DNA from: Haloarchaeobius salinus
GTDB lineage: Archaea > Halobacteriota > Halobacteria > Halobacteriales > Natrialbaceae
Length of the DNA: 64,000 nt
Direction of reading: 5' to 3'
NCBI RefSeq assembly: GCF_024464185.1
Contig: NZ_JANHAU010000001.1
Coordinates: forward strand, 124,001-188,000
Positions 16,533 through 19,715 of the stretch are shown piece after piece. Every line of letters starts with the position of its first letter. Position 1 is the stretch's first letter. A model generated the notes under the pieces. The model had not been told where the DNA came from. It saw nothing but the letters and a program-made list of their open reading frames with translations, and searched no databases. The position numbers and the translations under genes are program-made.

Positions 16533-17094
16533 TGGTCAGGATGGTCTACCCGCGCTATTGTAGATTCCGGCCGTCGAGAGCCCCCGTCCATTCACTGTGA
16601 CGTGACTGTCGAACCGTTTCACGTGGAGGTGGCTGGCGGGGGAGAATCGCCGGCACGGTGACGGGAACCGCGGTGAACGACCCCCCCACGGCGGACCGGA
16701 TGACGGGGACCACTCGGTTCGGTGACCGAGAGCCGAGTCGAAGGGAAGCCAACAGGAGAGACGGTGCGTCGAGATCCGAGACTCGGGGGTGCTCCGAGAC
16801 AGGGCGAGTGGTCGGACAGTGGCTCGGAGGTACGTGGGAGTCCAAAGGTGCAAGACGTGTGGGGCAGTCAAACGTCCGCCCCGTCGGTATGTAGAACGTA
16901 CATCCCGTACGAGTGTGGAGCTGACGGACCAGATGGGGACGTCGATAGGGACACTTCGGTCGGTCCACTGCTGCTCGCCCGACTGACCGTGACTGGACTC
17001 GAACTCTTCTCGGTCCCTCGCATCGCGTGTCGGCTGTTCCGACCGTCGCGTTCGTGTTCCATGCTAGCACGATATCCCGGTGGCCGGAGCCCCC

Positions 17095-17117
17095 CACCCC
17101 TTCGTTTCAACTGGAAC
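17095..17117 (-). repeat. ORB element 2 of oriC (minus orientation)
   Basis: Read on the minus strand it contains TTCCAGTTGAAACGAAGGGG, the most complete copy in the window and used here as the reference. It lies left of the AT-rich stretch with its G-run pointing outward. Confidence 0.85.
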
Positions 17118-17189
17118 GGGCGGTGATAGTGGGTGGGTCGGTGGACGAACTGATGGTTTCGTTCTAGAAGGCGGACAGGAATGGACGAA

Positions 17190-17280
17190 CATCTAGTGTA
17201 CAATATAGCTAGTAACTAGTAGAAGTTGGTTTTTCTCTGGTTCGCGGATACTGTTTCAGTAGTAGTGTATTAAAGATTCC
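17190..17280. other. AT-rich candidate DNA-unwinding element of oriC
   Basis: About 90 bp of clearly lower GC than the surroundings, with segments such as TACAATATAGCTAGTAACTA and TGTATTAAAG, placed between the two oppositely facing ORBs at 17095 and 17321. Position and composition suit a duplex-unwinding element. Confidence 0.6.
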
Positions 17281-17320
17281 CCTCGCTAGACGACCCCCTC
17301 CCCCCACCCCACCGTCAGCC

Positions 17321-17343
17321 GTTCCACCCGAAACAAAGGGGTG
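17321..17343 (+). repeat. ORB element 3 of oriC
   Basis: Contains TTCCACCCGAAACAAAGGGG and runs into a seven-G tract. It lies right of the AT-rich stretch, opposite in orientation to the box at 17095. Confidence 0.82.
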
Positions 17344-18155
17344 GGGGGGTCTGCACCTTCGTGTTAACACACGTCAATACCTTCCTCGAATCCAGTCGTC
17401 GGCTCCCGTGTCCCTCCCTATCAGGACCCATCCACGACCTCTCCCTCGGAACCCCCCTCCCGTTCAGGTCGAGCACGAACTCCGCAACGTCTCACCCCGT
17501 CGCCGTCTTCCACTTCCTGTCGCCGTCCGTCGCCCGCCCGCCCCCACCGTTTCCGGTCGACCCGGTCGTGGATCGGGGTTGATGTCTGTCCGAACCCTGC
17601 CATCGACGGGTCCCCGCGAAGCTGAGCCAGCTCGCGACCGGGGGACGTCCCGAGAACCCGTCGTTTTCGCCCCAACAGAGAATGGTCGTGAACGAACGCC
17701 TGCGTCGGCGACGCGCACGTTGGACAGAGTCCGCTAGGTCAGAGCGTCCGCTTGACCAGAGCACGTGTGTCCGAGGTGGAACCCGTACGCTGGAGACGGT
17801 ACGGCCGTCCTCGACAGCTGTCCCGAAGATGGGTGTCGAACTGCTCCGGTGTCGGGGTGTCGTCGACGGCGTACCGGACTCGTGTCGGATCGAGGGTATC
17901 GAGGTGAAACGACCCTGTTCCACTCGTCTCGCCCGCGGATCTCCGTTCGAGAGGCGGGAGGAACTCCACGGAACGGTCGTCTCCCACTACCACGCGCGAT
18001 GTAGTACTATTGACTCCTATTGCTGAAGGGCAACTATTATTACCCTCCTGTTCATCTGCTTCGTTTGCATCAACTGGACGGCGTATCGCTGGGTCGTTCG
18101 TCTCACGTCCGACGTACGGCGGGTACACGTCCGCTTTCACGGGACCTCGTCTCGA

Positions 18156-18188: not shown

Positions 18189-19715
18189 ATGACAGACAAC
18201 GACGACGACGCGGATACGGACGTAACTGGGGGCACGGAGCAGACGCCTCCGAACACCTCGCGGGACTTCGAGGTCGACCTCGACGACGTCGTACTCGACG
18301 AATCGGACGAGGAGGGTGCATCACAGGGACTGTTCGACGACCTCCTGAGCGGGGAGCCGATCTTCGAGAACAAGGAAGTCCTGCGACCGTCCTACACGCC
18401 GCACGAACTGCCGCATCGGAAGGAACAGATCAACAAGATGGCGACCATCCTGGTCGCCGCGTTACGCGGTGAGACGCCGTCGAACATCCTCATCTACGGG
18501 AAGACGGGGACCGGCAAGACCGCGAGCGCGAAGTTCGTCTCGAACGAGCTCGAGAGCACCTCGAAGAAGTACGAGGTGCCATGCTCCGTCGAGTACATCA
18601 ACTGCGAGGTGACGGACACCCAGTACCGCGTGCTCGCCCAGCTCGCGAACAAGTTCATCGACGAGAACGAGGCGTACATCGAGGACCGCGTCGCCGAACT
18701 CGAGGGTCTCCTCGACGAGGTCGACGCGGCCGACGCACCCGAAACCGACCCCCTCGCGGACACCGAGTTCGACTCGCGTGCGGCGGTCCACGAGCGAATC
18801 GACGAGCTCGAGGCCGACGCCGAGGAGTTCGAGGACGTACCGATGACCGGCTGGCCGACCGACCGGGTCTACAGCGTCTTCTTCGACGCGGTCGACTACG
18901 AGGAACGGGTCGTCGTCATCATGCTCGACGAGATCGACAAGCTCGTCGAGAAGTCGGGCGACGACACCCTGTACAACCTCTCGCGGATGAACTCCGAACT
19001 GGAGAACTCCCGCGTGAGCATCATGGGCATCTCGAACGACCTGAAGTTCACCGACTTCCTCGACCCCCGCGTCAAGTCCAGTCTCGGCGAGGAGGAGATC
19101 GTCTTCCCGCCGTACGACGCGAACCAGCTCCGGGACATCCTCCAGCACCGCTCCGACGTCGCGTTCGAGCCCGGGGCGCTCACCGAGGACGTCATCCCGC
19201 TGTGTGCAGCCTTCGCGGCCCAGGAGCACGGCGACGCCCGGCGTGCGCTCGACTTGCTCCGAACTGCGGGCGAACTCGCGGAGCGTTCGCAGTCCGAGGT
19301 CGTCGACGAGGAGCACGTCCGCAAGGCCCAGGACAAGATCGAACTCGACCGCGTCGTCGAGGTCGTCCGCACGCTCCCGACCCAGAGCAAACTCGTCCTG
19401 TTCGCCATCATCCTGCTGGAGAAGAACGGCGTGCACAACATCAACACCGGCGAGGTGTTCAACATCTACAAGCGTCTCTGCGAGGAGATCGACGCCGACG
19501 TGCTCACCCAGCGTCGCGTCACCGACCTCATCTCCGAGCTCGACATGCTCGGCATCGTCAACGCGGTCGTCGTCTCGAAGGGCCGCTACGGCCGGACGAA
19601 GGAAATCTCGCTGTCGGTCCCCATCGAGGAGACCGAGGCCGTCCTCCTCAGCGACTCCAGGCTCGGCGACATCGAGGAGGTCCAGCCGTTCGTGCAGGCC
19701 CGGTTCAACAACTGA
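18189..19715 (+). CDS. orc1: Orc1/Cdc6 origin-recognition initiator protein
   Basis: A 508-residue AAA+ initiator that binds ORBs and loads MCM. An acidic N-terminal tail of about 55 residues precedes the AAA+ module. Walker A is GKTGTGKT at 104-111 and Walker B is IMLDEID with Asp247-Glu248. Sensor-1 region MGISNDLKFTDFLDPR and the sensor-2 arginines in HGDARRALDLL are present. An acidic insertion of about 50 residues before Walker B is common in haloarchaeal origin-linked Orc1. The C-terminal part from about 395 is the winged helix that contacts the ORB. Its position beside oriC and oapABC marks it as the initiator of this origin. An ORB overlaps its upstream region. Confidence 0.95.
   Translation: MTDNDDDADTDVTGGTEQTPPNTSRDFEVDLDDVVLDESDEEGASQGLFDDLLSGEPIFENKEVLRPSYTPHELPHRKEQINKMATILVAALRGETPSNILIYGKTGTGKTASAKFVSNELESTSKKYEVPCSVEYINCEVTDTQYRVLAQLANKFIDENEAYIEDRVAELEGLLDEVDAADAPETDPLADTEFDSRAAVHERIDELEADAEEFEDVPMTGWPTDRVYSVFFDAVDYEERVVVIMLDEIDKLVEKSGDDTLYNLSRMNSELENSRVSIMGISNDLKFTDFLDPRVKSSLGEEEIVFPPYDANQLRDILQHRSDVAFEPGALTEDVIPLCAAFAAQEHGDARRALDLLRTAGELAERSQSEVVDEEHVRKAQDKIELDRVVEVVRTLPTQSKLVLFAIILLEKNGVHNINTGEVFNIYKRLCEEIDADVLTQRRVTDLISELDMLGIVNAVVVSKGRYGRTKEISLSVPIEETEAVLLSDSRLGDIEEVQPFVQARFNN

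Follow-up and report, generated by a model that had tools for sequence, protein, structure and literature searches.

CTAG clustering around a conserved bipartite element in the oriC1 core of Haloarchaeobius salinus and other haloarchaea

The oriC1 locus and its CTAG cluster

The window analysed here, a 64-kb stretch of the Haloarchaeobius salinus genome, contains the haloarchaeal origin oriC1, which is recognized by an adjoining conserved orc1 gene (95–96% identical to those of two other Haloarchaeobius genomes) and by inverted, G-string-containing ORBs on both sides of AT-rich DNA. The ORB profile was trained on 80 homologous loci and the window, and the lowest-GC 150 bp of the whole window were found inside the core bounded by the two inner ORBs. 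The features of the locus are listed below.

17064–17067, no strand: CTAG outside ORB−; no CTAG counterpart in congeners L007 and L008
17092–17117, minus strand: inner ORB−, left core border; ORB profile score 39.9
17118–17320, no strand: oriC1 core between the inner ORBs; 203 bp, GC 0.51
17164–17167, no strand: CTAG array site 1; kept in congeners L007 and L008 (alignment)
17193–17196, no strand: CTAG array site 2; kept in L007 and L008 (alignment)
17209–17212, no strand: CTAG array site 3; kept in L007 and L008 (alignment)
17216–17219, no strand: CTAG array site 4 (CTAGTAG); kept in L007 and L008 (alignment)
17237–17240, no strand: R2 slot at the left edge of the bipartite element; CTGG in the window, CTAG in L007 and L008
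17243–17256, plus strand: G-block of the bipartite element, CGCGGATACTGTTT; profile hit G000:C1:141244-141280
17270–17280, plus strand: bipartite element, A-block: TTAAAGATTCC; lies 27 bp from the start of the G-block
17286–17289, no strand: CTAG site R1 at the right edge of the element (+43)
17321–17346, plus strand: inner ORB+, right core border; ORB profile score 40.0
18189–19715, plus strand: orc1 gene of oriC1; NCBIfam ORC1-type DNA replication protein, above cut-off

An earlier, sequence-only reading had placed six CTAG tetranucleotides at 17064, 17164, 17193, 17209, 17216 and 17286, and all of these coordinates were verified, as was the membership of the cluster in the origin core. Its statement that the cluster fills the interval between the inner ORBs holds for five of the six copies and fails for that at 17064, which lies to the left of ORB− and is probably a chance copy. 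The same reading was right that CTAG is avoided: the window contains 14 copies, compared with an order-1 expectation of 83 and a shuffle mean of 83.6. When 14 sites were placed at random, none of 20,000 trials gave six within 226 bp, where 1.28 (order-1) or 0.85 (order-0) copies are expected. CTAG is also the commonest of the 16 palindromic tetramers within these 226 bp, and TATA, TTAA and GTAC showed no enrichment in that count. Six copies against 1.28 is not the number expected from local composition, one of two outcomes that had been named as fatal to the idea of a marked cluster; a simple effect of AT-rich DNA is therefore an insufficient explanation, since the count exceeds local composition and the enrichment is specific to CTAG.

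Elsewhere in the same genome, 46 CTAG were counted in 240 kb (0.19 per kb in 12 other 20-kb stretches). CTAG density increases with low GC in windows of this genome, and 10 copies were present in 49 low-GC windows (150 bp, half-overlapping, GC rounding to at most 0.50) taken from the 12 stretches and from the window outside the origin. In a whole-genome pattern scan, CTAG triplets with no gap above 30 bp occurred only at oriC1 and on contig C9. This 49-kb, low-GC contig, which is probably a plasmid or provirus, carries two such triplets (G000:C9:2393-2432 and 17092-17111).

CTAG sites and the m4C-TAG methyltransferase across haloarchaeal origins

The H. salinus genome encodes one full-length beta-type methyltransferase (PF01555 above cut-off, with an SPPY motif), which is a putative orthologue of the orphan m4C-TAG methyltransferase whose activity in Haloferax has been published (Ouellette 2018, PMC5867850); the identity of this CTAG-enzyme family is based on a single 64–67% match per Haloferax genome and on that publication. 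Given this resident orthologue, the earlier suggestion that the cluster marks sites protected from methylation is unlikely, and the CTAG sites are more probably targets of the enzyme; the broader thought that methylation is possibly involved was judged correct.

The use of CTAG was compared in 81 loci (the 80 homologous loci and the window), in 78 of which a core between inverted inner ORBs was delimited (all except L033, L034 and L085); L013 and L045, where the gene search was not possible, stand outside the division into genomes with and without the methyltransferase gene. The 59 cores of bearing genomes contain 179 CTAG versus 57.9 expected, and CTAG has the highest observed/expected ratio among the 256 tetramers in these cores. 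The 17 non-bearing cores contain 6 copies versus 9.7 expected, and none of them has two or more. Homologous oriC1 cores are thus enriched, contrary to the second outcome named as fatal by the sequence-only reading. CTAG frequencies in the flanks were 0.197 per kb in bearers and 0.131 per kb in non-bearers, implying that avoidance elsewhere persists without the enzyme, and the 2.2 kb upstream, apart from the core, had 0.72 CTAG per kb in bearers.

A second sample comprised one genome per genus and the window (62 cores, one genus being represented twice). Its 57 bearing cores contain 221 CTAG versus an order-1 expectation of 73.7 (family rows summed), and its five non-bearing cores contain 1 versus 3.0 expected. 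A core could not be delimited in 5 of the 67 stretches (G128, the second G214 copy, G121, G123 and G099); of the 68 sample genomes, two were left out, G316 because it duplicates L009 and G195 because of a contig end, and the window took the place of G311. Core density reaches 21 CTAG per kb in the Natrialbaceae-type family (f1). Among bearers, Halorussus, Halogranum rubrum and the four searched Halorubrum have 0–1 core CTAG, and Haloferax has 1–2.

These comparisons bear on the possibility that CTAG is favoured because strand opening would be eased by the TA step at its centre and its weak stacking. The location of the cluster in the most AT-rich stretch fits such a role; however, other palindromes of the kind (TATA, TTAA and GTAC) are not enriched along with CTAG, and genomes without the gene have cores that are more AT-rich (GC 0.464 versus 0.507 in bearers) and contain few CTAG. 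This explanation is therefore considered unlikely.

The association with the enzyme has its own phylogenetic structure. A methyltransferase orthologue was found in 249 of the 292 genomes of the class, and among the 20 listed of the 43 class genomes without it, all belong to family f4; thus, the correlation between methyltransferase and cluster rests on few independent events and is confounded by phylogeny. The Orc1 tree offered 5 to 7 independent pairs for a sign test, which was not significant. Moreover, five genomes outside the class with homologues of 49–55% identity have 0–3 CTAG and no cluster in the 2.7–3.7 kb upstream of orc1 covered by the comparison. The methyltransferase as the sole cause of clustering is therefore unsupported, both outside the class and on independent pairs.

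Conservation of the sites and the bipartite element

In directed comparisons between congeners, CTAG was retained in 226 of 296 cases, compared with 7076 of 22079 for other tetramers, and the corresponding numbers for four Natronorubrum were 54 of 60 and 855 of 3420. An opposite trend was observed in Halorussus, where CTAG was retained in 0 of 20 cases. In 14 f1 genera, six sites lie at −90, −59, −49, −27, −7 and +42 from the G-block described below, with an exact CTAG in 12, 13, 14, 13, 12 and 10 genera, respectively. The major-base frequency in these genera is 0.914 in CTAG columns versus 0.612 in other columns, and the non-CTAG columns are 46% pairwise identical. Such conservation of core CTAG, far exceeding that of the surroundings, is new, and we are confident that the CTAG array is a selected part of oriC1. 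By the same tests, it is very unlikely that the sites have no function, with a mere loosening of genome-wide avoidance in non-coding, AT-rich DNA and a semblance of conservation owed to common descent. The higher CTAG density in low-GC windows and the 0.72 copies per kb upstream in bearers agree with such relaxation, but the f1 cores are far denser (21 per kb), CTAG columns outlast their diverged neighbours, and the conservation tests contradict it.

The layout of the sites suggests a further possibility, namely that CTAG is part of a protein site (for an initiator partner or a nucleoid protein) and that methylation is incidental. In f1, the spacings of 31, 10, 22 and 20 bp are near the helical repeat, with a period peak at 10.2 that none of 1000 nulls reached, and the repeat is oriented and longer than the methyltransferase target (CTAGTAA, 36 forward versus 2 reverse in 16 genera). 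In addition, the sites flank the bipartite element, and the crenarchaeal origin motif ucm has a protein reader, UBP (PMC12141716). However, neither orientation (CTAGTAA, 1 versus 0) nor a helical period (833 of 1000 nulls equal the observed power) was found outside f1, and the f1 layout is inherited once, so that its periodicity represents a single event. Such a protein site is possible but on balance doubtful. As general rules, oriented CTAGTAA and helical phasing were both rejected as f1 features, the latter not being seen in the 19 non-f1 genera that have three or more sites.

By aligning the cores from the right ORB, two conserved blocks were revealed, which form a bipartite element, YRCGGRTAYKGTTT-N13-ATAAA, located at 17243-17280 in the window. 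Separately trained profiles for the blocks (YRCGGRTAYKGTTT and ATAAANCYWYC) scored in 123 and 120 of 139 cores, a set that includes some species twice and counts L013 and L045 as bearers, and the distance between the blocks was 27 bp in all 113 cores scoring for both. A promoter was considered as an identity of the element, with a TATA-like A-block on the minus strand and a start site near the G-block. A literature search, confined largely to the main text of open-access papers, found no prior description of the element. In one oriC1 copy (G109:C2:239748-239784, L185), the element and the adjacent orc1 are on different strands, unlike in the others.

The element is bracketed by CTAG: R2 stands 4 to 9 bp to its left, and R1 follows its start at a distance of about 42 to 44 bp; DNA 3' of R1 is C-rich in the window. 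R1 occurs in 53 of 102 cores from bearers versus 2 of 18 others, and R2 (−8 to −5) in 39 of 107 versus 0 of 16, both being phylogenetically non-independent counts. With one genome per genus, R1 was found in 12 of 40 non-f1 genera versus 3.7 expected. R2 measured from ORB+ was not enriched outside f1 (4 of 40 versus 3.2 expected), and when anchored on the G-block it occurred at −8 to −5 in 3 of 28, while at least four further f3 genera carry it at −4, which indicates that at oriC1 R2 belongs chiefly to f1; its remaining support comes from the 15 copies away from oriC1 described below. The placement of CTAG around an element of fixed spacing is new.

The distribution of the element was also examined by a blind search of 59 class genomes with a profile built from the sequence of the 38-bp element alone, excluding the CTAG flanks. 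Hits at E ≤0.05 were obtained in 42 of the 59 genomes (51 hits listed). Fifteen hits in 13 genomes lie away from oriC1, and all 15 adjoin an orc/cdc6 paralogue of 29–37% identity, so the element, like ucm, is common to origins with different initiators. The other hits mostly had orc1 in reach or oriC1-type ORBs or layout; in a few, orc1 lay outside the fetched flank, and one (G121:C1:1043886) had no orc gene within about 4 kb. CTAG abuts the element (−9 to −4, a range picked after data inspection) in 5 of the 15 copies away from oriC1, a number reached by 3 of 20,000 permutations, and R1 is present in 2 of the 15, a weak signal reached by 520 of 20,000. The recurrence of the element at 15 paralogous origins, five of them with CTAG directly at its left edge, is new.

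The H. salinus genome itself has a second copy at C7:157131-157168, which scores 27.8, compared with a maximum of 7.65 on both strands of the twelve 20-kb stretches and an oriC1 median of 30.4. As judged by eye, this copy is situated between inverted repeats of different sequence, and CTAG occurs at −84, −48, −9 and +53. No bipartite element was found at the orc genes C7:21800, C4:25940 and C1:8914 of this genome, which have 1–3 CTAG within about 400 bp upstream, and the remaining orc genes (on C5 and a second one on C7) have no CTAG within about 400 bp upstream.

Several individual copies also deserve mention. The element also occurs at L164:3131-3168. The G121 hit (G121:C1:1043886-1043923, L324), about 4 kb from orc1, has no CTAG; in this genome, the region upstream of orc1 showed no inverted pair of inner ORBs, and the origin may have moved. 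In the Halorubrum-type genome G105 (L314), in which no methyltransferase orthologue was found, a copy away from oriC1 has CTAG at −53, −48, −19 and −4; this origin is perhaps on a recently acquired plasmid.

Possible roles of the CTAG array

In the oriC of E. coli, GATC, the palindromic target of the orphan methyltransferase Dam, is clustered in a system that includes SeqA. The haloarchaeal origin is similar in that a palindromic target of a putative orphan methyltransferase is clustered beyond composition, with the cognate gene present in the genome. On the other hand, the modified base here would be m4C, the enzyme is of the beta class, CTAG is avoided elsewhere, the initiator is an archaeal Orc1, and no analogue of SeqA was identified.

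Blow et al. (2016, PMC4752239) had reported that CTAG is enriched in front of haloarchaeal orc genes and had correlated this with an orphan m4C-TAG methyltransferase. They described clusters ahead of several orc genes in a single genome and already proposed a regulatory idea; the text of that report has m4CATG, and the legend of its Fig 6D has CTAG. Its motif, place (Fig 6D legend) and methyltransferase family are the same as those described here. Density and correlation are given in that report, whereas the placement relative to the ORBs, site conservation, the bipartite element and R1/R2 come from the present analysis.

The enrichment, conservation, placement, recurrence at paralogous origins and the methyltransferase gene form the basis for reading the sites as an array. 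On such genomic grounds, the CTAGs could be selected working parts of oriC1 that constitute a methyltransferase target array in the unwinding region around the element, a proposal for and against which we find the balance even. They would most likely represent methylation marks on the unwinding region, and the chances that methylation is the very purpose of the array appear about equal either way. Before firing, the array would be methylated on both strands; firing would render all sites hemimethylated at once, which could alter the access of factors to the element or the ease of melting, and restoration of the mark by the methyltransferase would provide the origin with a memory of having fired. 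We infer that the sites are methylated in this species, that their methylation state matters, and that it has a once-per-cycle role. N4-methylcytosine may affect melting, a point on which a literature search gave no usable paper, and we know of no reader of hemimethylated CTAG.

Previous studies of CTAG methylation provide additional context. The role of this modification was left open by Fullmer (2019), and deletion of the methyltransferase in Hfx. volcanii caused no growth defect (PMC5867850); because the Haloferax oriC1 core has only 1–2 sites, this deletion leaves the question unsettled. A 2024 Haloferax study (PMC11001535) linked CTAG to promoter-upstream regions and found unmethylated CTAG to be commoner in low-GC DNA, which calls for caution about full methylation in the AT-rich core.

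The bipartite element may be compared with other non-ORB origin elements. The crenarchaeal ucm is an essential motif of this type, and the gene of its binding protein, ubp, was acquired recently in Sulfolobales and Desulfurococcales (PMC12141716). Both ucm and the element are short motifs in the unwinding region, common to origins with different initiators; unlike ucm, the element has two blocks at a fixed 27-bp spacing. It is possibly an analogue of ucm, which it resembles in role and placement, and it bears on the question, raised in the ucm paper, of whether comparable origin factors exist in further archaeal lineages. In Haloarcula hispanica oriC1, of which a minimal version exists, a G-rich inverted repeat enhancer has been described inside the inner ORBs (PMC3936714). 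Its position within the inner ORBs of the same origin and the C-rich DNA after R1 in the window are points in common, yet it is a separate element, and the enhancer section of that paper mentions neither CTAG nor the bipartite element.

Taken further, a core module might exist across Orc/Cdc6 families, in which a ucm-like element with a hypothetical reader is bracketed by m4C-TAG sites that license or block its use; we put this forward tentatively, as an idea more apt to fail than to hold. The block on double origin firing in archaea is poorly understood, and an array whose sites keep fixed positions about a conserved non-ORB element offers named bases to mutate. If true, such a core module would be an archaeal counterpart of Dam/SeqA with a different base, enzyme and reader.
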